Shown piece after piece: positions 20,339 to 39,323 of a stretch of DNA of 64,000 nucleotides. The position numbers and the translations under genes are program-made. A model generated the notes under the pieces. The model had not been told where the DNA came from. It saw only the letters and a program-made list of their open reading frames with translations, and did not search any database. How positions within the stretch are numbered: the stretch's first letter is position 1; every line of letters starts with the position of its first letter. The DNA is from Myxococcaceae bacterium JPH2 (GTDB lineage Bacteria > Myxococcota > Myxococcia > Myxococcales > Myxococcaceae), in the NCBI GenBank assembly GCA_016458225.1, contig JAEMGR010000003.1, forward strand, positions 496,001-560,000. Reading direction: 5' to 3'.

Positions 20339-21874
20339 ATGGCGAACCAGGATTGGGTGTCGCGCCTGCTGACCGGGCGTGCGTCGGCGGACAAAGGGCT
20401 CAACGTCCACCTCTCCGAGCGCGATGGCGGCGGCCTGCACGACAAGATGCGGCAGGCGTACTGGTGGATCACCAACAACGCCGTCATCTGCCCCTACTAC
20501 GACATCGAGTTCGGGGGGCGCGCCGCGCTGAAGAACGCCGCGGGTGACGAGGTCCACCTGCCCGAGGACATGAGCTACAGCTCGTTCGTCCTCATCCCGC
20601 TGCTCACGCTCTTCACCTGTCGCCGCGCGATGCTCGTGGGCGGCCCCGGGCGCGGCAAGACGACGTCCGCGGTCCTCATGGCGCTGCTGTCCGGCATGAG
20701 CCGCGACGAGGTGCACCGCGGCATCCAGCGCGGCCATCCGCAGCTGTCCATCGCGGATCTGCTCGGCGCGCCCCTGCCCTCGGACATGCTCAAGGCCGAG
20801 GACATGGCGCAGGTGAAGGTGAGCTGGCGCAAGTGGATTGGCCAGCGCGTGAAAATCATCGACGAGTACAACCGCATCCCCACCAAGACGCAGTCCGCCC
20901 TGCTGTCCCTCATGGCCGAGGGCTACGCGGAGATGATGGACCAGTATGTCTATGCGGGGCGCTCGTCCTGGTTCCTCACCGCCAACGACGACCAGGGCGG
21001 CGGCACGTTCCAGGTCATCGAGGCGCTCAAGGACCGCATCGACGTCGTCGTGCGCGCGGTGCCGTTCAACTCGCACTTCATCGACACGCTGCTCCAGCGC
21101 ATCGAGGCGGACCGCTCCCCCGAGGAGATGCTGCCGCGCGAGATTGTCTTCACGCCCGGAGAGCTGGAGAAAATCTACGCCTCCATCCTCGCGGTGGAGG
21201 TGCCGCCGGACGTGCTGGAGCGCGTGGCCTTCTTCCTGGGGCAGCTCGACTTCTGTCGCATGGCCTCGCCGCGCTTCGAGTTCAAGCACAAGGACACGCT
21301 GAAGCTGGCCGGTCAGACGGTGTCCGCCGTGTGCAACGAGCAGTGCCCGCTCGACAAGAAGGTGCACCTGTGCACGCAGACGGAGAACGGCGTCAGCGTG
21401 CGCGCGTACCAGACCATCCTCCACTTCGCGAAGGCGCTCGCCTTCTTCCGAGGCCACGCCACCGTGGAGCTGGAGGACTTCCGGCAGATTGCCCCCTGGG
21501 TGCTGCACGAGAAGCTGGTGCCCAACGCGCGCAGCCCGTTCTTCGAGGTGAAGGGCCACCGGCCGCTGCTCCAGGACCGCGTGGCGTGGATCCGCCAGAT
21601 GTTCGACATGGCCGGGGCGCAGTTCGACGCGCACCTGCCGCTGCGCCGCAAGGTGGATGCGCTGCGCAAGGACCTGGACAAGGGCTTGGCGGGCGTGGAC
21701 CTGCGCACCACGGAGAAGCGCCTGGCGGCGGTGACGGCGCTGATGAACGAGCTGCTATCGCGCCACGAGCTGTCCGGTCCCATCTACGAGGACCTCATCC
21801 ACCTCAAGTCCATGTACAGCCGCTATCGCAACTACGCGACGTGGCTGAAAGAGAGCCCGGGCGGGACGCCATGA
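20339..21874 (+). CDS. MoxR-type AAA+ ATPase
   Basis: 511 residues. Walker A is GGPGRGKTT (101-109) and Walker B is VKIIDEYNR (171-179), followed by TKTQSALLSLMAEG and a sensor-1 Asn in SSWFLTANDDQ. This is the MoxR order. The C-terminal half has Cys residues (NEQCPLDKKVHLC) and an AAA lid, then a helical tail of about 100 residues. MoxR ATPases usually work with VWA-domain proteins to remodel or insert cofactors into target proteins. Here the partner VWA protein is two genes downstream. The stop overlaps the next start by ATGA. First gene of the operon. Confidence 0.85.
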   Translation: MANQDWVSRLLTGRASADKGLNVHLSERDGGGLHDKMRQAYWWITNNAVICPYYDIEFGGRAALKNAAGDEVHLPEDMSYSSFVLIPLLTLFTCRRAMLVGGPGRGKTTSAVLMALLSGMSRDEVHRGIQRGHPQLSIADLLGAPLPSDMLKAEDMAQVKVSWRKWIGQRVKIIDEYNRIPTKTQSALLSLMAEGYAEMMDQYVYAGRSSWFLTANDDQGGGTFQVIEALKDRIDVVVRAVPFNSHFIDTLLQRIEADRSPEEMLPREIVFTPGELEKIYASILAVEVPPDVLERVAFFLGQLDFCRMASPRFEFKHKDTLKLAGQTVSAVCNEQCPLDKKVHLCTQTENGVSVRAYQTILHFAKALAFFRGHATVELEDFRQIAPWVLHEKLVPNARSPFFEVKGHRPLLQDRVAWIRQMFDMAGAQFDAHLPLRRKVDALRKDLDKGLAGVDLRTTEKRLAAVTALMNELLSRHELSGPIYEDLIHLKSMYSRYRNYATWLKESPGGTP

Positions 21875-22698
21875 GCGACTTCGTGCGCGAGCTGGAGGAG
21901 AACGCGCGGGCCCGCTTCGTGCGGTGGCATCCGGCGCTGTGGAGCGAGCTATTGCAGGGCCCCGCTCAGGCACTGGGGCAAGCCCTGGTTGCGGCCGGCG
22001 TCGGCGAGGACGAGGCCGGGCACCTGATGCGGAGCTATCTCCAGCTCGGCGCCGAGGGCATCGGGCTGGGCTATCTGTACCCCGCGTCCTCGGGGCGGCT
22101 GAACGTCTTCACGCTGGCGTGGTCCACCCTGGTGCCTCGACTACTGGCCGCGGTGCCCTCTGCCCGGCGCGCGGACACGCTCGCGCAGCTGTGGAACCTG
22201 GGCGAGAACCTGGAGGCCGCGCCACCGTGGGTGCAGCGCGTGTTCTGCCGCGTCTGCCGAGACCTGCCGTCGCTCGATGACATCGAGGCGCGGTTGCGCC
22301 ACGTGGCCGCGTCCGTCCTGGAGGCCCCGGGCACGCCGCTGCGGCAGTCCGTCCAGGCGCATTGGGTGGACCTGTCTCGCGAGGACGCGCGCTTCCTCCC
22401 CGGCGCGATGCACTTCCTGGCCCCCACCGTGGTCTGCGTTCACGACCGCCACCGACTGGCCGCGGCCGGCCGAGACGCCGCGACGCAAGGCGTGTGGCTG
22501 ACGGAGACGCCGCTCCCGCTGGGCGCCATGGGCTGCAAGGAAGTACCGCCCTCGACGTGTGAGCCCACCGCCGCGCTGGTGAGCCTGGAGCAGCGTGACG
22601 CCCGGGCCGGGGAGTGGTTCGCCACGGGAGCCAATGGCTGGCGCACCGTGGCGACGATGCAGACATCGCAGTGGCTGGCGGTGCTCATCCCGGCATGA
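21871..22698 (+). CDS. Unrecognised MoxR-operon protein
   Basis: 275 residues; start and stop overlap both neighbours by four bases (ATGA), so it belongs to the MoxR unit. N-terminal helices (FVRELEENARARFVRWHPALW) are followed by a helical middle with two Cys (RVFCRVCRDLPSLDDIEARL). A more strand-rich C-terminal half contains HFLAPTVVCVHDRHRLA, CKEVPPSTCEPTA and a final WRTVATMQTSQWLAVLIP. No signal peptide or membrane segment. Position between ATPase and VWA protein suggests an adaptor or substrate-recognition role, which is inference only. Confidence 0.7.
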   Translation: MSDFVRELEENARARFVRWHPALWSELLQGPAQALGQALVAAGVGEDEAGHLMRSYLQLGAEGIGLGYLYPASSGRLNVFTLAWSTLVPRLLAAVPSARRADTLAQLWNLGENLEAAPPWVQRVFCRVCRDLPSLDDIEARLRHVAASVLEAPGTPLRQSVQAHWVDLSREDARFLPGAMHFLAPTVVCVHDRHRLAAAGRDAATQGVWLTETPLPLGAMGCKEVPPSTCEPTAALVSLEQRDARAGEWFATGANGWRTVATMQTSQWLAVLIPA

Positions 22699-24356
22699 GC
22701 GGGAGCGCCTTCACACCCGAGGAGGTGGAGCGCTGCTGGCGCGAGGCGCTGGCGCTCTGGGACATGCACGTCCAGCTCAGTCCTCCCGCGCCTCACCTGC
22801 CCTTCCTCCCCGCGGAGCGAGGCCTGAGCGAGCCGCTCGCGTACATCGACCTGGTGAAGCGTCAGGTGTTCGTGAACTTCGAGCTGCTCGCCACGATGGG
22901 CGCGCGAGACAGCTTGACGGCAGTGCTGGCGCACGAGATTGGCCACCACGTGCGCTTCCCTCACACGCTGGGCTGGGACGCGGAGCTGCGCGTGGTGGAG
23001 CAGCGCTTGATGCCCGGCCTGAAGCAATCGCTCACCAACCTCTACTTCGACCTCCAGGTGAACGAGTACGTGGGGCGCACGCACGCCCCCGCGCTCTGCG
23101 CCGTGTACCAGGGCTTCCTGCGCCGCCCCGGCTCCGCCCCGCCGTCCCCGCTGTTCTGCTTCTACCTCGCCCTCTACGAGGAGCTGTGGGGCCTGCCGCC
23201 GGGACACCTGGTGCCTCGCGAGCAATTGGAGCCGATGGAGGCGGCCTATCCCGGCACGCGCGCGGAGGCCCGCGTGTTCGCGCAGACGTTCTATTCGCTG
23301 GCGGATCCACGCGAGCAATTCCTCTACTTCTGCGCCACCTTCATCCGCTACCTCGACTCGCTGGATGACGAGGACCCCACGCTTCCGCTGGGCGGGGACA
23401 TCCCCTTGCCGGACGAGGCGGACCTGGACGCGGCGGTGCAGTCGGGCGGCAGATGGGATGACGCACTGGCCGAGGCCAAGGCGCGAGGCTGGCTGACCGA
23501 GTCACACGACACGCGTGACGCGGATCCACTCACCACCATCTCCCGCGCCACGAACCACCTGCCCGGCAAGGGACAAGCAGAGGTGCGCCGCGCGCTGGTC
23601 GGTCGTTACTACCGCCGCCTCGTGGACGCGCACGTGCTGCGGCTGCCCAGCGCCCCGACGAATCCCGAGCCGAGCCTGCGCACCACGCCCACCGAATGGG
23701 AATACGGCGACGACCCGAGCACCATCGATTGGACGCTGACGGTGCTCTCGCGGGGGCCGCTCGCGGCGGTCTCGCCATTGCGCCGCGAGCTGGAGGTGGA
23801 CGTGCCGCCCGCCTCGGAGCCCGGCATCCCGGCCGTGGAGCTGTACCTGGACACCAGCGGCTCCATGCCCAATCCCCAGACGCAGCTCAACGCGATGACG
23901 CTGGCGGCGCAGGTGCTGTCCGCCTCCGCGCTGCGCAAGCAGGGCCGGGTTCGGGCCGTGGTGTATTCGGACGGACCGCCCCTGGAGTCCGGCTGGATGT
24001 ACAGCGAGGACACCGCCCGCGAGTTCCTCTTGCAGTTCATCGGTGGGGGCACGCGCTTCCCCATCGAGCGCCTCACGGAGTCCGCGCAACAGACGCCCGA
24101 TGTGCTGCGCGTGCTCATCTCGGACAGCGACTTCCTGTCGAACATGTCGGACCCCGCCGCGCTGAAGCGGCTCGTGGAGGCGACGCGACGCTCGCGGCTG
24201 CTCGTCGCCTTCCTCGCCCTGCCGGACGAGCACGCCGCGCGCAAGCTGTTGGCCCCAGCGCTGGCGGACCGGCGCTTCCGCCTGGTGACGGTGGCGTGGA
24301 TGTCCGACTTCGGACCCATGGCCGCGGCGCTCTCTCGGGCGCTGTTGGAGACCTGA
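22695..24356 (+). CDS. HExxH metallopeptidase-like protein with C-terminal VWA domain (DUF2201 type)
   Basis: 553 residues. The N-terminal part has a zinc-protease signature, LAHEIGHHVRFPH (HEIGHH at 80-85), followed by a helical domain. The C-terminal part is a VWA-like domain with an intact metal-ion-dependent adhesion site (LDTSGSM, 385-391), VVYSDG, a Thr in GGGTRFPIE and VLISDSDF. This arrangement resembles the VWA-like DUF2201 family with its putative metallopeptidase N domain. Together with the MoxR ATPase it probably forms an ATPase/VWA pair. Whether it cleaves protein is unknown. Translation is coupled to both neighbours. Confidence 0.8.
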   Translation: MSGSAFTPEEVERCWREALALWDMHVQLSPPAPHLPFLPAERGLSEPLAYIDLVKRQVFVNFELLATMGARDSLTAVLAHEIGHHVRFPHTLGWDAELRVVEQRLMPGLKQSLTNLYFDLQVNEYVGRTHAPALCAVYQGFLRRPGSAPPSPLFCFYLALYEELWGLPPGHLVPREQLEPMEAAYPGTRAEARVFAQTFYSLADPREQFLYFCATFIRYLDSLDDEDPTLPLGGDIPLPDEADLDAAVQSGGRWDDALAEAKARGWLTESHDTRDADPLTTISRATNHLPGKGQAEVRRALVGRYYRRLVDAHVLRLPSAPTNPEPSLRTTPTEWEYGDDPSTIDWTLTVLSRGPLAAVSPLRRELEVDVPPASEPGIPAVELYLDTSGSMPNPQTQLNAMTLAAQVLSASALRKQGRVRAVVYSDGPPLESGWMYSEDTAREFLLQFIGGGTRFPIERLTESAQQTPDVLRVLISDSDFLSNMSDPAALKRLVEATRRSRLLVAFLALPDEHAARKLLAPALADRRFRLVTVAWMSDFGPMAAALSRALLET

Positions 24357-24919
24357 TGGCCTTCTCGATTCCTCGACTTCGTGAGCAGCTCGCCGCGGCG
24401 CCCCTCGCGTCCCCCTATCCGCACGAGCTGGCGCTGGCCGTCATCTGCGACGTGTTCCGAGCCGCGAACCAGCGGCCTCCCCGGCGCGAAGCCTTCGTCC
24501 AGTTCGAGCGGCATCACGGTCATCCCCTCTGGCGCGAGCAGGTGGGCATGTTGGCCCACGTGCTGGCCTCCACGGCGCTGCGCGAGGAGACGGTGAAGGC
24601 GCTCGACGCGACGCGCGCGCCCATGGCGCGCCTGGAGCAGTTCTTCGAGGAGATCCAACCCCTCACCGCGGAGATGGTGCGCGCGAACGCCTTCCGCCAG
24701 GAGGAGTTCCTCCGCGTGTGGATCCGCGGGATGGGTGGCGAGATTGAGCACGAGACTCCGGCGACGTCGAAGCAGCGCCTGGAGCAACTCGATTACCGCA
24801 AGGCCTTGGCGGACTTCCGCGCGGCCGAGTCCGCCCGAAAGAAAGAAGCCGAGCGCCGCGAGCAGCTCATTCAAGAAGCCGCGAGGCGCGAAGCCGAAGC
24901 GCGCGGCTGGCGCGAGTAA
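24356..24919 (+). CDS. Small coiled-coil protein of the MoxR operon
   Basis: 187 residues; the ATG shares one base with the upstream stop (TGATG). The N-terminal half is helical (PHELALAVICDVFRAANQ, WREQVGMLAHVLASTALREE). The last 50 residues are a charged coiled coil (ALADFRAAESARKKEAERRE and onward). No Cys-rich or catalytic motif and no signal peptide. It is likely a structural or regulatory subunit of the MoxR/VWA complex. No family recognised. Confidence 0.7.
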   Translation: MAFSIPRLREQLAAAPLASPYPHELALAVICDVFRAANQRPPRREAFVQFERHHGHPLWREQVGMLAHVLASTALREETVKALDATRAPMARLEQFFEEIQPLTAEMVRANAFRQEEFLRVWIRGMGGEIEHETPATSKQRLEQLDYRKALADFRAAESARKKEAERREQLIQEAARREAEARGWRE

Positions 24920-24931
24920 GGCAAGGCGCGC

Positions 24932-26257
24932 GTGTCCACGCACTCCGTCCTCGCGCCGAACCTGGGCGTCGCGCCTCGGGCGAGGATCCGCCGCGACACC
25001 GCGACGCAGCGCCCGCACATCCCCTGGGCCGAGGCCGTCGCCCAGGAACTGTCCGCGCTCGCCTCGCTCTCGGATGAGGCCCAGGCCCGCGCGCGCGTGG
25101 AGGCTCGACTCGACGGACTGCGACGCGCCCTGCACGACTCGCCCTTTCATGCGCGGCGGCTGCGCGACTTGGGGCTGCATCCCGGCGACCTGCGCGGACT
25201 GGACGACCTGAAGCACTTCCCCGTCCTGGAGCGCGCGACGCTCGCGGAGCACTGGGACGCCATTCCAACCTTGCCCACCGAGTCCTCGGAGTGCGTGGTG
25301 GTGCGCAGCTCCGGCACCACGGGCGACCCGGTGAACGTCGTGCGCGACCGACGCGACTGCCTGCTCATGTGGGCCGTGCTGCGCTTTCTGCTCGCGCGCG
25401 CGGGTGCCCGGCTGTCACCGCGCCCCCGCGTGGTGCTGCTGGACGCGCTGCCCGGTGGGCTGGAGTACTCGGTGCGACTGCCCATCCTGGAGAACGGAGC
25501 CTTGCACCGCGTCTCCGTGCTGCGCGCCGACGCGGCCGAGCGCCTGCGCCGCGTGCGTCCCTCCGTGGTGTTCTCCGACCCCGAGGGACTGCGCTGGTGG
25601 ATTGCCCAGCCAGCGCTGCCTCGGCCCGCGCTCATGCTGACGTCCGCGCAGCATCTGCCCGCCGCGCTGCGGGACACCCTCACGCGCGACCTCGGCGTGC
25701 CCGTGCTCAACTACTACGCCACCACTGAGACCGGGCCGCTCGCGTGGGAGTGTCTGCACACGCCTGGGCACTTCCATGTCTTCGCGCCCGATGTCTGGTT
25801 GGAGCCGGACTCGGACGACGTGGTGGTGACGCGCCTGCGGCCCAGCGTGTTGCCGCTGTTGCGCTATCGGCCGGGAGACCGCGGCACGGCGCGACGGGAT
25901 GCGTGCGCGTGCGGCTTCCACGGCTGGACGCTGACGGGCTTCGGCGGACGGGGCGCGTGCCGCTTCCTCGCGCCCACGGGCCGCTCGGTGGATGCGTGGG
26001 CCGTGGCCTGGGTGTTCAAGCACCACGCGCTGCGGGCGTTCCGCCTCACGCAGGAAGACTCCGAGGGATTCCTGTTGGAGCTGGCCGGGGCCTCGGCGCA
26101 AGAGGCCCGCGCTTTGACGGAGCGACTCGTCGCGGCGCTGCGGAACCTGGGCTGGACCTCACCGCGCGTGGCCGTGCACGCCGTGGACGCTGCGGCGTGG
26201 AGCACGCCCGCCAAGCCGCAGCCGTTCCGGTGCCTCGTGCCCGCTCAGGGGCACTGA
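24932..26257 (+). CDS. PaaK-like adenylate-forming enzyme
   Basis: 441 residues from GTG, 12 bases after the coiled-coil gene, so probably the last gene of the MoxR operon. It has the phenylacetate-CoA ligase/CapK layout: VVVRSSGTTGDPVNVV phosphate loop (near residue 123), LMLTSAQHLPAALRD, NYYATTETGPLAWEC (the A5-like YxxTE signature), RYRPGDRG (the A7-like RTGD equivalent) and a Cys-containing ACACGFHGW. The substrate and acceptor are unknown; CoA ligation, carrier loading or carboxylate activation are all possible. Its 3' end overlaps the convergent lipoprotein gene by 13 bases. Confidence 0.78.
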   Translation: MSTHSVLAPNLGVAPRARIRRDTATQRPHIPWAEAVAQELSALASLSDEAQARARVEARLDGLRRALHDSPFHARRLRDLGLHPGDLRGLDDLKHFPVLERATLAEHWDAIPTLPTESSECVVVRSSGTTGDPVNVVRDRRDCLLMWAVLRFLLARAGARLSPRPRVVLLDALPGGLEYSVRLPILENGALHRVSVLRADAAERLRRVRPSVVFSDPEGLRWWIAQPALPRPALMLTSAQHLPAALRDTLTRDLGVPVLNYYATTETGPLAWECLHTPGHFHVFAPDVWLEPDSDDVVVTRLRPSVLPLLRYRPGDRGTARRDACACGFHGWTLTGFGGRGACRFLAPTGRSVDAWAVAWVFKHHALRAFRLTQEDSEGFLLELAGASAQEARALTERLVAALRNLGWTSPRVAVHAVDAAAWSTPAKPQPFRCLVPAQGH

Positions 26258-33229: not shown

Positions 33230-34036
33230 TCAATAAGCAGAGAGTCGAGGATGCGGCGTCCGAGGAAGCTGGGCGTGCGGCGCCCACGGGCCACTGGACC
33301 CCAGACATCGCCGGCAGGTCTCCAGCGGCGTCTCTCGCTCCAGATAGCCGAGCATCCGCGCGAGCAACTCCGGGCCGTCCAGTGACACCCCATCCACTTC
33401 CGACAACGCAGGCGACTCCGGGTGCTCACGCCGCACCACGGTCTCGACATGCGGAGGCCGCGTGCACAGGTAGAAGCGACCTTGGTGCACCAGATGGCAC
33501 CGCGTCTTGAGCCAGCAGCGCGCGAAGACCTCGCGCGTCTCGGCGTCCGACGTCGAGGGGCTCTCGGGAGTCAGCTGCTGGAACGCGTCGATGCGCTTCA
33601 CTGTGAGATAGACGCCGTGCTGTTCGCACCGCTCCGTGATGCGCGCGATGGAGCGCTCCGGTAACAGCCGCGACGAATAGACAGACAGCGTCATCCGGTC
33701 GAGCCGCTCGTACACCGCATCCGGCGCGCTCTGCGCGAGGAACCCATTCGTGGTGACGGAGAACTGCTCGCTGATGCCCGAGGCCCGAGCCACGTCGAGC
33801 AGCGCGGGAAGGTCCGGATGCAGGAACGGCTCCCCTCCCGTGAACTTGAACACCTGCGGCTTGAGGACTCGGGCCAGCGTCCGCAGGTCCTCACCGAGCC
33901 GCTCGGGCGACACGGTCCAGGCCGGCAAGTGGGGAGACAAGGGGCAGCACTGCACGCAGCGCAGGTTGCAGTGCGTGGCGGCATGCGCCTCCAGGGCCCA
34001 GGTGAGGATGCGACCGTCGTGGAGGTCGTAATGCAC
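33230..34036 (-). CDS. Radical SAM protein with SPASM/twitch-like C terminus
   Basis: 268 residues from GTG 34036, chosen because AGGATGGGG lies just upstream and it avoids overlap with the divergent gene; the frame is open 75 codons further. The cluster motif is CNLRCVQCC (CxxxCxxC), followed by FKFTGGEPFLHPDL (the GGE motif). The C-terminal quarter has Cys residues spaced like a twitch/SPASM auxiliary cluster site (FARCWLKTRCHLVHQGRFYLC ... ETCRRC). Such enzymes act on peptides or on amino sugars (BtrN type). It diverges from an asparagine-synthetase-like gene 53 bases away, suggesting a shared specialised pathway. Confidence 0.8.
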   Translation of the reverse strand: MHYDLHDGRILTWALEAHAATHCNLRCVQCCPLSPHLPAWTVSPERLGEDLRTLARVLKPQVFKFTGGEPFLHPDLPALLDVARASGISEQFSVTTNGFLAQSAPDAVYERLDRMTLSVYSSRLLPERSIARITERCEQHGVYLTVKRIDAFQQLTPESPSTSDAETREVFARCWLKTRCHLVHQGRFYLCTRPPHVETVVRREHPESPALSEVDGVSLDGPELLARMLGYLERETPLETCRRCLGSSGPWAPHAQLPRTPHPRLSAY

Positions 34037-34089
34037 GGCCCCATCCTGCCAGGGTTGCCCCGAGCCTCGCGCGCCTGCACCATCTCCCC

Positions 34090-35361
34090 GTGTCGCATCC
34101 TCTCGGAGAAACGCGCGGGCCCCTCGCTCGACTGCCCTCGTGGCGAGCCACCGAAAGGGCCGAGCCCGGACTCGCCCCCACGTCCGTCGCGGCCCTCCTG
34201 CGTCACGACCTGTCCCCCACCGCGAGCCTGTTCCAAGGGATGCAATGCCTCCCGGTCCCACCGCCCGCCATCACGCGCGGCGTGGACACGCCACGCGATG
34301 AGGACACCCTGGCTGATGCGCTGCGCACGCTCGGGGAGCAAGCCATTCAAGCCCAGGTCGGCGCGGGCACACGTGATGTGAGCCTCAGCGGTGGAGTCGA
34401 CAGCGCGGCGCTGTGCGCGATGGCCGCGCGCCACGCACCGGGGCGGATCCGCGCGTGGACCATGGACGTCCACTTCGCCGACACCACCGAGCGCGCCAAC
34501 GCCCAGCTCATGGCGCGCGTGGCCGGAGTCGAACAGGTGGACGTGCCGATTCCGGATGCGTGCCTGCCCGATCTCTTCGAGCCGGCGGTGCGCGCCAACC
34601 CACGCGTCATCCTCAATGCCCGCGCCATCGCCAGCTTCGCGTTCTACGCGGAGGCGAAGCGACTCGGAGTCGGCCCGGTCATGCTCAGTGGCGCGGGCGC
34701 GGACGAAGTGATGCTCGGCAATCCCCGAGCACGCGCCAACGCCCGCGCGCAGGTGGATGAGGATCGAAAGCTCGCGGCCCGCGTACTCCGCCATCCCGCA
34801 CCGGAGTTCGCCCTCGACTCCACGACCATGCCCTGGGACCTCGGGCCGTGGGAGGCGAACCGCTCCGACGAGGTCCGCCACGCCGCCTGGGTCTTGCGAG
34901 AGCTGGTCCTGCCTCCCGAGCTGTGCGGCGCCCGAGCCCATGGCCTCACGGTGCGCACACCGTACCTGGACGAAGCCTTCGCTCGCTTCACGCTCGCACT
35001 CCCCGCTTCGTTGCTGGTGCGAGGCGACCTGGGCAAGTGGCTCTTCCGGCACGCGGTGCGCACGCTCGTCCCCGACGAGGTCCGGCTCGCGCGCAAGACG
35101 CCGCGCTATGCCCAGACCGCCCTCTCCAGTCCCATGCGCCAGCGCTGGCTGGAGCTGTATCGCGAATGGCTCTCTCCCCACCGCCTGGAGCCGCTCCAGG
35201 TCATCGACCCCGTCGCGGTGCTCGCGCTCCTGGATGACTATGCGCGGCTCGCTCCCGAGGACACCCGTGCGGCGGCGGTGGATCGCCTGTTGATGCGGCT
35301 GGTGTCACTCGCCATGCTCCACGCTCACCCCGAGGCATGTCGCGCATGTCCCGAATCCTGA
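34090..35361 (+). CDS. Asparagine-synthetase-like ATP-dependent amide synthetase lacking the glutaminase domain
   Basis: 423 residues from GTG. The ATP-pyrophosphatase motif is DVSLSGGVDSAALC (SGGVDS at 100-105). It is followed by MLSGAGADEVMLGN and RTPYLDEAFARFTLALP, then the Lys in GDLGKWLFRHAVRTLVPDE, all matching the AsnB C-terminal domain. Only about 65 residues precede it, resembling the tail of a glutaminase domain (LFQGMQCLPVP). The N-terminal Cys nucleophile is absent, so it cannot use glutamine alone; beta-lactam synthetase and lasso-peptide cyclase relatives behave similarly. Probably activates a carboxylate and forms an amide. It overlaps the downstream glycosyltransferase gene. 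Confidence 0.78.
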   Translation: MSHPLGETRGPLARLPSWRATERAEPGLAPTSVAALLRHDLSPTASLFQGMQCLPVPPPAITRGVDTPRDEDTLADALRTLGEQAIQAQVGAGTRDVSLSGGVDSAALCAMAARHAPGRIRAWTMDVHFADTTERANAQLMARVAGVEQVDVPIPDACLPDLFEPAVRANPRVILNARAIASFAFYAEAKRLGVGPVMLSGAGADEVMLGNPRARANARAQVDEDRKLAARVLRHPAPEFALDSTTMPWDLGPWEANRSDEVRHAAWVLRELVLPPELCGARAHGLTVRTPYLDEAFARFTLALPASLLVRGDLGKWLFRHAVRTLVPDEVRLARKTPRYAQTALSSPMRQRWLELYREWLSPHRLEPLQVIDPVAVLALLDDYARLAPEDTRAAAVDRLLMRLVSLAMLHAHPEACRACPES

Positions 35362-36539
35362 TCGCCACCTCGCCCGAGAAAGGGCACGTCAACCCGATGG
35401 TCGGCGTGGCGCAGTGGCTGCGCCGCTTGGGCCACACCGTGGGCTGGCTGTGTCTGCCCGAGCCCGCGCCCCAGCTCGAACACCTCGGTGTCGAGCTGCT
35501 CCACCTCCCCACGGCGCGCCCCGCCGCGCCCGCCATCGAGACCGGTGGCGAGGCCCTGGCGAAGCTCGTTCAAGACGAGGCCGCGTTGGGCGCGTGGATC
35601 CGTGGGCTGCTGCTCGACGCGGTACCCGCGCTCATTCCTCCCGTGCGCGAGGTGGTGCGCGCCTTCCGTCCCGACGTGATGGCGCTGGATGGAATGCAGT
35701 ACGCGGCCGTGCTCGCCGCGCACGCGGAAGGCATCCCCTGGGCGGGAGTGTCCTCCGCGCTGACGCTGCTGGAACCAGAGCTGGACCTGGCGCTCTTGCG
35801 CAACGTGCGAGCCCTGGCCGCAGACCGTCAGGCCCTGTTCGCCCGCTATGGCTTCGACGCGCGCTTCCGAACCTGTGAGTGCCTGTCACCGAGCCTCAAC
35901 ACCATCTTCGCGACAGAGGACTTCGTCGGCTCGGACGCGCGCGTTCCTCCCGCCACGCACCTCGTGGGCCCCTCGATTCCGCCCGAGGACCGAGGCGATG
36001 AAGTGGACTTCCCCTGGCACCGCATGGGCGACAAGCCCGTGGTGTATGCCTCGTTCGGCAGTCAGATTTCGTGGCAGCCCGAGCTGTTCCGTCTCATCGC
36101 GGAAGCCGCCGCACCGCTGGGCGTCACGCTGGTCCTCACGGCAGGAGCGCTGGCCGGCACGGACTTCCCCAGCACGCTGCCCGGTGACGTCGTGGCCGTT
36201 CCGTATGTGCCACAGCGCCAGCTCCTGCGGCGCACGTCCGTGTTCATCTCGCATGGCGGCGCCAACTCGGTGATGGAGGCGATGACGGCGGGCGTTCCGC
36301 TCCTCTTGCTGCCCGTCTGCAATGATCAGCCGGTGCAGGCGCACTTCCTCGAGCAGGCAGGAGCGGGGCGTGTACTCGCCCCCTCCCGAATGACCGTGCA
36401 CGAGTGCCGAGCCGCGCTCACCCAGCTCATGGCTCCAGAGTCCTCCATCCGGCGCAAGGTGTCCGCCATCTCCAAGGTCTACGGCGCACGCGACGGAGCC
36501 CGAGAAGCCGCCGAGCGCATCGCGGGTCTGGTCGAGTGA
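35346..36539 (+). CDS. GT1-family (UGT/MGT-like) glycosyltransferase
   Basis: 397 residues from ATG 35346, which has GAGG eight bases upstream; ATG 35337 is an alternative. The start lies inside the end of the asparagine-synthetase-like gene. The N terminus, RILIATSPEKGHVNPMVGVA, is the acceptor-binding half. The C-terminal nucleotide-sugar signature is FISHGGANSVMEAMTAGVPL followed by LLPVCNDQPVQAHFLEQAGAG. This family glycosylates small lipophilic molecules such as macrolides and polyketides. In this context it may decorate the product of the upstream enzymes. The stop overlaps the next gene by GTGA. Confidence 0.85.
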   Translation: MSRILIATSPEKGHVNPMVGVAQWLRRLGHTVGWLCLPEPAPQLEHLGVELLHLPTARPAAPAIETGGEALAKLVQDEAALGAWIRGLLLDAVPALIPPVREVVRAFRPDVMALDGMQYAAVLAAHAEGIPWAGVSSALTLLEPELDLALLRNVRALAADRQALFARYGFDARFRTCECLSPSLNTIFATEDFVGSDARVPPATHLVGPSIPPEDRGDEVDFPWHRMGDKPVVYASFGSQISWQPELFRLIAEAAAPLGVTLVLTAGALAGTDFPSTLPGDVVAVPYVPQRQLLRRTSVFISHGGANSVMEAMTAGVPLLLLPVCNDQPVQAHFLEQAGAGRVLAPSRMTVHECRAALTQLMAPESSIRRKVSAISKVYGARDGAREAAERIAGLVE

Positions 36540-37393
36540 CAGAGCCACGGCCTTGGGTCGCGCGCCGGCATCACCCTCCGGGCGTCACGCCGCTGGAGGT
36601 GTGGAACCTGCCCGTGCTGGGACACGAGTTCTGGGAGCTGGCGGGAGCAGTCCGAGTGGACGCGACCCGCCGCGCGGGAGTCCCCGAGCCCACGCTCACC
36701 GCGAGACTCGTCGCCACGGTGCAGGCCGCGCTGGAACTCCTCGTCCACCAGCACGCACCGGACGCCGTCTATCTCAGCGGAGGGCTCGCATGTCTGGAGG
36801 GCTTCAACGCCGAGCTGGCCCGGGCCACGCAAGCACTCCCCTGCACCGTGCACGTCGCCGAGGCGCCTCGCTTCGCCCCCGTGCACGCAGGGCTCGCCGT
36901 GCTGGAATCACTCTCAGCCCGCGCACCACTGTCCGTGGACGTCGGGCAGACCAGCATCAAGTGCGCGAGCCCCCATGTCTCGTGGCTCGTCGAGCGCAGC
37001 CCCGCGACCCTGCCCTGGCTGTTCATCGGCATGCCTCGTCCGAAGGATGGGCACCACATCACCGCCGCCACGCGGTTCATCGCGGGCACGATGCGAACGT
37101 TCATCGAAACGAACGCCGAAGCGCCGGATGCCCTGTGCCTCGCCCTGCCCTGTCCGCTGGATGAAGCGCTGCTCCCAGGGGGTTGCACCTACGGCTGGGA
37201 GGGACACGCCTCACTCGTCTCGGACATCCTCACCCAGGCGAGCCTGCCCGCGAGCGGCGGCACGGTGTGGGTGCTCAACGACGCCGAGCTGGCCGCGGAG
37301 TCCGCGCGACGTGATGCGCGCGTGAAGGGCCGCAAGGTGTTGTGCCTCACGCTCGGCTTCGGCCCGGGCGGGGCCCTGCTCGAACGGACGTGA
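36536..37393 (+). CDS. ROK/ASKHA-like kinase with apparently swapped (permuted) lobes
   Basis: 285 residues from GTG 36536, overlapping the glycosyltransferase stop. The second half starts with a phosphate-1 motif, VDVGQTSIK (134-142). It continues with VLNDAELAA (247-255, the ROK ND motif) and LTLGFGPGGALLE (271-283, a phosphate-2/GTGIGGG-like motif), and then ends. In normal ROK kinases this is the N-terminal lobe. The first half contains YLSGGLACLEGFNAEL (79-94) and FAPVHAGLAVLES, which look like the adenosine-binding C-terminal lobe. The order therefore appears circularly permuted. A sugar or small-molecule kinase role in the cluster is inferred; catalytic Asp and substrate are not certain. 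Confidence 0.65.
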   Translation: MTEPRPWVARRHHPPGVTPLEVWNLPVLGHEFWELAGAVRVDATRRAGVPEPTLTARLVATVQAALELLVHQHAPDAVYLSGGLACLEGFNAELARATQALPCTVHVAEAPRFAPVHAGLAVLESLSARAPLSVDVGQTSIKCASPHVSWLVERSPATLPWLFIGMPRPKDGHHITAATRFIAGTMRTFIETNAEAPDALCLALPCPLDEALLPGGCTYGWEGHASLVSDILTQASLPASGGTVWVLNDAELAAESARRDARVKGRKVLCLTLGFGPGGALLERT

Positions 37394-37507: not shown

Positions 37508-38392
37508 ATGTCCGCCGACTCCCTTGTCTCCCTCTCTCAATCCATTGCATCCGTCGTCGAGCGCATCGCGCCGAGCATCGTCCGCGTGGAGGCCCGCCGC
37601 CGTCGTGGCGCCACGGGCCTTGTCTTCGGCAACGACGGGCACATCCTCACCACCAGCCATGCCGTCGAGCACGAAGGCCACATCCAGCTCGGCCTCGCCG
37701 ATGGAAGAACCGTCTCCGCCGAGCTGGTGGGCCGAGACCCGAGCACCGACCTCGCGCTCCTGAAGACCGAGACCTCGGGCCTCACGCCGCTCACGCCCGC
37801 GCCGCTCGATGACGTGAAGGTGGGGCACCTCGTCCTCGCCGTGGGACGTCCGGGTCGTACAGCGCGCGCCACGCTCGGCATCGTCAGCGCGTTCGGAGAA
37901 GGTTGGCGAACGCACGCTGGAGGGCGCGTGGACCACTACCTGGAAACCGACGCGGACCTTCCGCCCGGCTTCTCGGGTGGCGCGCTCGTGGATGCCCAAG
38001 GCCGCTTCCTCGGCCTGCTGACGGCGGCGTTCTCGCGCTCGGCGGCGGTGGTGATTCCGGGCAGCACGCTCACCCGCGTGGCGAATGGTCTCGTGGAGCA
38101 CGGCGGCATTCGCCGCGGCTACCTCGGCGTGGGAGCCCATCCCGTGCGACTCCCGCAGACGCAGGGAGAGACCGGGCTCATCCTCCTATCGGTCGATCCA
38201 GATGGCCCCGCGCACCGCGCCGGTCTGCTGTTGGGCGATGTGCTGTTGAGCCTGGGCGGCCAGTCGCTGCACGGCGTGGAGGACCTGCTCGGCTACCTGG
38301 GCGACGAGAAGGTGGGCTCCACCGTGACGGCGAAGGTGCTGCGCGCGGGCGAGGCACGCGACGTGTCCATCACCATTGGCAAGCGCGCGTGA
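37508..38392 (+). CDS. HtrA/DegP-like trypsin-fold protease with PDZ domain, no signal peptide
   Basis: 294 residues from ATG 37508; GAAAGGAA precedes it. The triad positions are His51 (LTTSHAVEH), Asp81 (PSTDLALLK) and Ser156 (PPGFSGGALVD). The usual GNSGG is GFSGG here. A PDZ domain follows (LGVGAHPVRL ... GLLLGDVLLSLGGQSLHGVE). There is no signal peptide or membrane helix, so the enzyme should be cytoplasmic, which is unusual for HtrA proteins. A second, related protease gene follows 16 bases downstream, and the pair is probably co-transcribed. Confidence 0.85.
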   Translation: MSADSLVSLSQSIASVVERIAPSIVRVEARRRRGATGLVFGNDGHILTTSHAVEHEGHIQLGLADGRTVSAELVGRDPSTDLALLKTETSGLTPLTPAPLDDVKVGHLVLAVGRPGRTARATLGIVSAFGEGWRTHAGGRVDHYLETDADLPPGFSGGALVDAQGRFLGLLTAAFSRSAAVVIPGSTLTRVANGLVEHGGIRRGYLGVGAHPVRLPQTQGETGLILLSVDPDGPAHRAGLLLGDVLLSLGGQSLHGVEDLLGYLGDEKVGSTVTAKVLRAGEARDVSITIGKRA

Positions 38393-38408
38393 GGAAGGGA
38401 GCGCACCG

Positions 38409-39323
38409 ATGAAGTTCCTGCAACAACTCTCCGATGACCTCGAGAGCCTGGTGGCGCGAGCCTCTCCCGCCGTCGTCGGCGTGGAGCACGCGCGAGGCCA
38501 CGGCACGGGCCTCTTCCTCACGCCGGATGGCTACATCCTCACCAACCGCCACGTGGTGATGCGCAGCCCCCGAAAGCTCCGCGTCCAGCTCTCCACGGGC
38601 GAGGAGCGCGGGGCGTCGCTCGTGGGCGTGGACCTTCCCACCGACCTCGCGGTGGTGCGCGCGGAGGGCGATGCCTTCCCCACGTTGCCCCTGGCGGATC
38701 CCGAGAAGGTCCGCGTGGGTCAGCTCGTGGTGGCCATCGGCAATCCCTTCCGATTGGAGCAATCCGTGTCGCTCGGCATGGTGAGCGCCATCAACCGCTC
38801 CATCACCTTGCCCAACGACGTCATCCTGGAGGGCATGCTTCAGACCGACGCGGCCATCAACCCGGGCAACTCGGGCGGCCCGCTGCTGAACACGCAGGGC
38901 CAGGTGGTGGGGCTCAACACGCTGGTGCTCCCGGACGCGCAGGGCATCGGCTTCGCGGTGAGCGCGGCCACCGCCGCGTGGGTGGCCAGCTTGCTGATTC
39001 AGCGAGGCAAGGTGGAGCGGAAGTTCCTGGGCATCGCCGCCACGGCGGTCACCTTGGAGTCCGCGCTGGCCAAGGACATCGGCCAGTTGCGCGCGGTGCG
39101 CGTGCTTCAGGTCAAACCCGGCGCGCCAGCGGATGACGCGGGACTCCTCGCCGAGGACCTGCTCCTGAGCATCAACGGTCGGCCCGTGCAGAGCGTGGAC
39201 GACCTCCAGCGCTTGATGGCGCTGTCCACGGACGACGCCGTCCAGCTCGACGTGCTCCGCAAGGGCCGCCGCAAGACGACGGCGGTGCGGGCGCATCCGC
39301 GCCTGGAGTCCGCCGCCGCGTAA
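38409..39323 (+). CDS. HtrA/DegP-like serine protease with PDZ domain, no signal peptide
   Basis: 304 residues from ATG 38409, with AGGAAGGGAG upstream. Canonical trypsin/HtrA motifs: His48 (ILTNRHVV), Asp79 (LPTDLAVVR) and Ser155 (NPGNSGGPL), then a PDZ domain (FLGIAATAVTL ... GLLAEDLLLSINGRPVQSVDDL). It lacks a signal peptide. Compared with its upstream neighbour it is closer to consensus, so the pair may be an active enzyme plus a diverged partner able to form mixed trimers (inference). An inverted-repeat terminator follows. Confidence 0.88.
   Translation: MKFLQQLSDDLESLVARASPAVVGVEHARGHGTGLFLTPDGYILTNRHVVMRSPRKLRVQLSTGEERGASLVGVDLPTDLAVVRAEGDAFPTLPLADPEKVRVGQLVVAIGNPFRLEQSVSLGMVSAINRSITLPNDVILEGMLQTDAAINPGNSGGPLLNTQGQVVGLNTLVLPDAQGIGFAVSAATAAWVASLLIQRGKVERKFLGIAATAVTLESALAKDIGQLRAVRVLQVKPGAPADDAGLLAEDLLLSINGRPVQSVDDLQRLMALSTDDAVQLDVLRKGRRKTTAVRAHPRLESAAA

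Follow-up and report, generated by a model that had tools for sequence, protein, structure and literature searches.

The locus considered here lies in a stretch of 64,000 nucleotides from Myxococcaceae bacterium JPH2 (GCA_016458225.1, contig JAEMGR010000003.1, positions 496,001 to 560,000, forward strand), referred to in its whole length as the window, and it raises the question of whether four adjoining genes of different enzyme families serve one pathway and what such a pathway might make. The genes encode a radical S-adenosylmethionine protein (rSAM), an asparagine synthetase-like protein (AsnB-like), a family 1 glycosyltransferase (GT1) and a protein with the motifs of ROK sugar kinases. 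The comparisons presented below support one pathway formed by all four genes; that it is a small pathway making and tailoring a glycoside, perhaps of an aminoglycoside-like kind, has in our estimate about an even chance. The features of the locus are as follows.

33230..34036, minus strand: twitch rSAM protein, probably HygY-like, predicted radical sugar epimerase (PF04055, E 3.4e-9; GTG start).
34037..34089: divergent intergenic region of 53 bases, seen on the sequence; site of additional genes in genus g5.
34090..35361, plus strand: AsnB-type ATP-PPi synthetase domain lacking the glutaminase, expected to form an amide or an ester (PF00733, Asn_synthase, E 2.7e-42).
35346..36539, plus strand: GT1 glycosyltransferase, MGT/YjiC-like (PF00201, UDPGT, E 5.4e-20).
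36536..37393, plus strand: predicted sugar kinase, apparently a ROK/ASKHA domain in circularly permuted form (motif order, profile matches and a 2x2 rotation test).

The four genes, the 53-base divergent gap and the two overlaps had been described in an initial annotation made from the letters of the window, and all of them were confirmed on the sequence. The AsnB-like and glycosyltransferase genes overlap by 16 bases, counted from the ATG at 35346, which is the start used by relatives (an alternative ATG lies at 35337), and the glycosyltransferase and ROK-like genes overlap by 4 bases, GTGA. Compared with the nearest relative, the Citreicoccus locus L031, the ratio of nonsynonymous to synonymous substitution (dN/dS) is 0.17 for the rSAM, 0.22 for the AsnB-like, 0.14 for the glycosyltransferase and 0.14 for the ROK-like gene; against the more distant locus of Myxococcus xanthus AM003 (L036) it ranges from 0.19 to 0.36, with synonymous distances up to 0.9–1.1. 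Such values, well below 1, indicate that all four are constrained proteins under purifying selection and, together with the rSAM and ROK-like homologues found in 49 of 195 genomes, that they are more than chance open frames.

The clearest evidence for a common function comes from the distribution of the genes. A sample of 195 Myxococcota genomes was searched with the ROK-like protein (E<=0.001) and with the rSAM (E<=1e-10); each was found in 49 genomes, and the two sets are identical. Forty-six of these genomes belong to four genera (g1, g5, g8 and g19) of the window's family, in whose other genera there was no match, and three (G027, G155 and G186) belong to other families. Both genes are present in all 16 listed genomes of g5, which we take to be Corallococcus, and in all 27 listed genomes of g19; the genome handles run unbroken in these two genera, and the flanking ones (G073, G090, G111 and G139) are of other genera. 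The rSAM and ROK-like genes are divergent on one contig in every one of the 46 clade genomes, at a distance of 2.5–2.9 kb in 30 of them and of 4.8–14.5 kb in the remaining 16, all of g5. In two genomes, G079 and G084, the rSAM sequence is split across two contigs. The genome search covered the rSAM and ROK-like proteins, and the presence of the AsnB-like and glycosyltransferase genes was taken from the loci read: all four genes stand together, their order kept, in 19 of 19 long clade loci (7 from named genomes and 12 picked from the 46, with species partly duplicated between the sets). A scan of genome contigs with the rSAM, which reaches close relatives only, gave seven loci in Citreicoccus, Pyxidicoccus and Myxococcus; a copy of the cluster occurs in the M. 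xanthus strain AM003. The initial annotation had deduced a single pathway from gene packing and named co-conservation across Myxococcota as a check; the co-occurrence of rSAM and ROK-like proteins, the divergent layout and the synteny in the clade loci read now support that inference well.

Extra genes lie between the rSAM and AsnB-like genes in all eight g5 loci read (L050–L057), which makes the divergent gap a hotspot of insertion in this genus. As candidate members of the pathway these genes were rejected: clustering places a RecQ-type helicase in eight of the eight loci, and the remainder is variable, several genes being of defence type. Among the representatives scanned with Pfam were helicases of the RecQ, NERD and DEAD types, BrxC/D, a subtilase and an AbiE pair.

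Outside the clade, the cluster is found in altered form. In G027 (L045), one strand carries the rSAM, a synthetase domain of 277 residues lacking the glutaminase, a complete enzyme of the asparagine synthase type (342.7 bits with TIGR01536, above the cut-off), a GT1, a family 2 glycosyltransferase (GT2), the permuted ROK-like gene and a PIG-L deacetylase. G155 has a complete AsnB-type enzyme, a GT1, the permuted ROK-like gene and a PIG-L on contig C78 (L043) and the rSAM on contig C34 (L044), while the 6.2 kb contig of G186 (L042) carries the rSAM, a GT2 and the permuted ROK-like gene. The PIG-L gene lies directly 3' of the ROK-like gene in L045 and L043, the GT2 recurs in L045 and L042, and the complete AsnB-type enzyme has a glutaminase domain in both L043 and L045. 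Since all three distant genomes show GT2, PIG-L or GT1 neighbours, the ROK-like gene accompanies sugar-type genes. In G155 a purS gene (PF02700, E 1.8e-32; L043:6535-6777) lies 12 bases before the AsnB-type gene. The rSAM N-terminus is about 145–290 residues longer in L042:16-1728 and L045:6781-8013, and the extension of the L042 protein had no Pfam match at E<=0.01.

The rSAM gives the best clue to the chemistry. Its closest solved chain is 7wzv (E 6.4e-40, residues 6-261), which is annotated only as a '4Fe-4S cluster-binding domain-containing protein'. Among plasmids, seven records matched at E<=0.001, the best being an rSAM of Streptomyces sp. SAT1 with 33.8% identity over residues 2-260 (263 aligned positions). 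This protein is encoded among aminotransferases, GalE, a SIS protein, glycosyltransferases and APH(7'')-Ia (94.88%, as predicted by PLSDB). APH(7'') is a hygromycin B resistance enzyme, and from its presence in this stretch we presume that the SAT1 rSAM is HygY, the twitch enzyme that epimerises a sugar in hygromycin B biosynthesis. In an alignment of 26 myxobacterial loci (the window included, some species entered twice) and the SAT1 protein, the CxxxCxxC cysteines C24, C28 and C31 (numbering of the window rSAM, P0001) are kept in 27 of 27 sequences, as are C175, C192, C242 and C245, the last two forming a late CxxC; by analogy, we take these four to be ligands of the twitch auxiliary cluster. 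The initial annotation had called the cysteines SPASM/twitch-like; their presence was confirmed, and they are now resolved to the twitch set. One more cysteine, C181, occurs in all 26 myxobacterial loci and in SAT1 (27/27), where it aligns with position 183; 7wzv has a serine there. Cys183 is the hydrogen donor of HygY, and the conservation of C181 combined with family knowledge leads to the prediction that the net reaction is the epimerisation of a sugar carbinol.

The window rSAM is thus like the presumed SAT1 HygY in its 34% identity over almost the whole length, in CxxxCxxC and twitch cysteines and in the extra cysteine, and unlike it in context, the window cluster having only four genes and no aminocyclitol or heptose genes adjoining the rSAM. 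Judged from these alignments, it is probably a HygY-like sugar epimerase and not an enzyme of peptide chemistry. The initial annotation had not decided between a peptide and an amino sugar as substrate; given a HygY-like rSAM and partners of sugar type, a sugar would be the more likely. It counts against this assignment that the SAT1 protein is itself only presumed to be HygY, and Cys183 to be the donor. An AlphaFold model of the rSAM, built with 8 close sequences, was too poor for use (mean predicted local distance difference test score, pLDDT, 39.9; predicted template modelling score, pTM, 0.32).

The ROK-like protein is of a less familiar build. That of the window has no Pfam match at E<=1, and had been called sugar-kinase-like or ROK-like in the initial annotation, which recognized the kind and the motifs and overlooked their order. 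In an alignment of 14 members, the glycines G82 and G83, a pair characteristic of ASKHA C-lobes (GG motif), precede D135 of DVGQT, N248 and D249 (ND) and the GxGxG of G274-G278; D135, G137 and T139, N248 and D249, and G274, G276 and G278 are invariant in all 14. The order is therefore C-lobe and then N-lobe in every member, and the order of ROK kinases, N-lobe first, was found in none. A profile of the 14 members searched against the PDB matches the ROK N-lobe with residues 125-276 (residues 15-158 of 1woq, E 7.9e-5), and its first half (about 35-118) weakly matches C-lobes of N-acetylmannosamine kinase, MreB and Hsp70-type chains (E 0.09–0.2).

A rotation test points in the same direction. 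Profiles of the permuted set (14 members) and of 12 ordinary ROK kinases were compared in a 2x2 design, each as it stands and rotated; the cut points in the ordinary kinases were placed by searching for motifs and do not correspond exactly. With neither set rotated, 135 columns aligned at a score of 46.0 (130-280 on 2-143), and a second, weak match paired 37-96 with 217-275. The unrotated permuted set against the rotated ordinary kinases gave a single alignment of 222 columns (score 57.8, E 1.7e-7), the rotated permuted set against the ordinary kinases a single one of 231 columns (score 46.4), and rotated against rotated again 135 columns (score 47.1). Both lobes are therefore spanned in both mixed comparisons and in neither comparison of like with like. 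Length varies at the joint in L033 and in G138 (matches at 6-125 and 117-284, with a gap between), and elsewhere, near residue 190, in G122.

Motif order, the split PDB matches and the rotation test together suggest that the ASKHA/ROK domain is circularly permuted in the ROK-like protein. With ROK sugar kinases such as the polyphosphate/ATP glucomannokinase 1woq it shares the DVGQT phosphate-1, ND, GxGxG and adenosine-type GG motifs; it differs from them in the permuted order, in lying below the Pfam ROK cut-off and in the lack of the cysteine-rich zinc motif CxCGxxGC, a feature of ROK kinases that does not occur in the consensus of the 14-member alignment. Several results speak against a permutation or are neutral on it. 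Rotating the permuted set lengthened the alignment from 135 to 231 columns and hardly changed the score (46.0 to 46.4), the gain to 57.8 being seen only when the ordinary kinases were rotated. Pfam ROK was matched by one of seven rotated as against five of 14 unrotated single sequences (best unrotated E 0.026), the gathering score was reached by none of the 14 members, and the window protein had no ROK match. The rotated profile found no full-length match in the PDB, its weak match to 3lm2 (E 0.03) spanning the joint, and in the search that gave the C-lobe matches an argonaute chain (E 0.0037) ranked above the best of them (E 0.087), which places these at noise level. The AlphaFold model (mean pLDDT 52, pTM 0.48; 8 close sequences) was too poor, and Foldseek with this model returned nothing meaningful, the best hit being a type III polyketide synthase (E 0.009), from which nothing was drawn. 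Among plasmids, the ROK-like protein had no relative at E<=1.

The remaining two proteins are more conventional, and the families given to them earlier stand. The AsnB-like protein matches PF00733 (E 2.7e-42) and carries the PP-loop SGGxDS (SGGVDS), conserved in 10 of 10 proteins, as in the asparagine synthetase/beta-lactam synthetase family. It departs from that family in lacking a glutaminase domain, for there was no Pfam GATase match and an N-terminal glutaminase with Cys2 was not found, and in having alanine at position 202 in 10 of 10 proteins, where the asparagine synthetase 8sue has glutamate (SGEGSDE). This glutamate is catalytic in asparagine synthetase, and so the formation of asparagine is unlikely. 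In L057 and L053, two loci of g5, the protein as called is without most of its N-terminal remnant. The glycosyltransferase exceeds the cut-offs of PF00201 (72.1 bits against 19.5) and of PF06722, the EryCIII C-terminal family (53.7 against 31.7), and its profile matches PDB glycosyltransferases with a best E of 3.4e-42, nearest to the YjiC, OleD and CalG types. Like these MGT-type enzymes it shows near whole-length profile matches and the HGGANSVMEA region, but with TIGR01426 it scores only 158.6 bits against a cut-off of 260, and it was therefore not assigned to that subfamily.

From these parts, we infer catalytic activities, an order of steps and a product. The GT1 would attach a sugar to an acceptor. 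In the rSAM, a 5'-deoxyadenosyl radical would abstract hydrogen from a carbinol carbon of the sugar, and Cys181 would return hydrogen from the opposite face, leaving the carbon epimerised. The permuted ROK-like protein might phosphorylate a sugar or glycoside with ATP, and the AsnB-like enzyme might adenylate a carboxylate and couple it to an amine or hydroxyl. Clusters of the hygromycin B type likewise bring together a HygY-like rSAM, a glycosyltransferase and functions of the sugar-kinase type; when 12 proteins of the window and of the distant clusters were compared with 15 SAT1 proteins, however, only the rSAM matched, the others giving E >= 0.01. Tentatively, and with rather less than an even chance, the products may form a new class of bacterial glycosides, made by a core of four genes in which a HygY-like enzyme would invert one carbon of the sugar and a permuted ROK/ASKHA kinase, the first of its own family, would phosphorylate the product or a precursor of it; this pathway would be fixed in a myxobacterial clade that includes M. 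xanthus.

Some observations tell against a glycoside pathway of this kind. Genes for substrate supply (aminocyclitol synthase, aminotransferase or NDP-sugar enzymes) were not seen in the cluster; those for aminocyclitol supply were absent among the Pfam-scanned genes, no genome search being aimed at them. The PIG-L of L043 found no match in the window's genome, an empty answer that is not conclusive alone, and the GT2 of L042 found one weak match there. The same enzyme steps could instead act on a component of the envelope, the cluster modifying a structural glycoconjugate such as a glycolipid, a spore coat or an exopolysaccharide unit. We consider this unlikely, although the cluster is fixed in its genera (16/16 and 27/27 listed genomes of g5 and g19) with a stable layout, unlike many antibiotic clusters, and family knowledge allows the GT2 and PIG-L of the distant relatives to fit envelope glycans as well. 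Against it stand the GT1 profile matches, enzymes of MGT type usually glycosylating small molecules, the antibiotic-type cluster of SAT1 as the closest context found for the rSAM, and the lack of any match in genera of the family other than g1, g5, g8 and g19. Within a glycoside pathway, the rSAM might alternatively be a dehydrogenase that yields a keto sugar, as BtrN, named as a dehydrogenase in an excerpt of PMC10991966. The closest solved chain, 7wzv, lacks the cysteine, and a paper title ascribes latent dehydrogenase activity to HygY; but the cysteine is found in 26 of 26 myxobacterial loci aligned, and no aminotransferase that could use the ketone was seen in the cluster, which makes an epimerase the better choice and a dehydrogenase rather improbable.

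The unity of the cluster and the nature of its substrate can be questioned as well. The co-occurrence within the clade may be plain vertical descent; in G155 the contig with the AsnB-GT-ROK genes is not the one that carries the rSAM, and G186 shows only rSAM, GT2 and ROK-like genes on its 6 kb contig. The four genes could accordingly be neighbours by descent without a common product, a divergent rSAM standing beside an AsnB-GT-ROK operon of other function, as is also suggested by the G155 rSAM being placed beside a MoxR-VWA-PaaK-like operon that lies near the window rSAM too, and by the tolerance in g5 of up to 14.5 kb between the ROK-like and rSAM genes. G027 and G186, however, are of other families and have the two genes on one strand, no more than 5.0 and 1.0 kb apart, and an identical presence in three of 149 non-clade genomes would arise by chance with a probability of about 2e-6 if the genes were independent, relatedness being ignored; mere neighbourhood is in our view quite improbable. 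A pathway for ribosomally synthesized and post-translationally modified peptides, in which the rSAM and the AsnB-like enzyme would act on a ribosomal peptide, is very improbable. Family knowledge places rSAM enzymes and AsnB-like cyclases in clusters of that kind, and the window offers about 350 bases on the 3' side of the rSAM; but in 17 of 19 clade loci at most 46 bases separate the rSAM from the next called gene on that side, which leaves no conserved small gene at that position. A conserved precursor peptide was not seen, the 3' side of the ROK-like gene not being counted and small genes elsewhere not being searched for. The twitch cysteine set and the best rSAM matches, 7wzv and the SAT1 sugar-cluster enzyme, also speak against a peptide pathway.

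The four genes would offer a compact pathway in a genetically tractable species, M. xanthus; in the open-licence literature, no description of a product, of the cluster or of a permuted ROK protein appeared among the matches listed. Few pathways are known to use radical epimerisation of sugars, and one more, in a compact setting, would help to gauge how widespread it is. Confirmation of the permuted sugar-kinase fold would reveal the extent to which the ASKHA fold tolerates rewiring without losing its ATP site; the permuted protein escapes the Pfam scans made here.

Two other groups of genes lie near the cluster. At 20339-26257 of the window (plus strand), a conserved run encodes a MoxR-type AAA ATPase, a 275-residue protein, a VWA protein with an M48-like motif, a 187-residue protein and a PaaK-like AMP-binding enzyme. 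The PaaK-like ligase (24932-26257) scores over 400 bits in 47 genomes, all of them within the 49 (the 46 of the clade and G155, where it directly abuts the rSAM), with a partial match of 295 bits in the incomplete genome G139. The VWA gene has the same spread, with 809 bits in G139 and 337 in G142 in addition. As a fifth cluster gene the ligase was left out, because at the limits used both it and the VWA gene miss G027 and G186. Beyond the ROK-like gene, at 37508-39323 (plus strand), two HtrA-like protease genes stand in tandem, the first with Trypsin_2 and PDZ domains by Pfam, and at least one such gene is found at the same locus in 15 of the 19 clade loci read.

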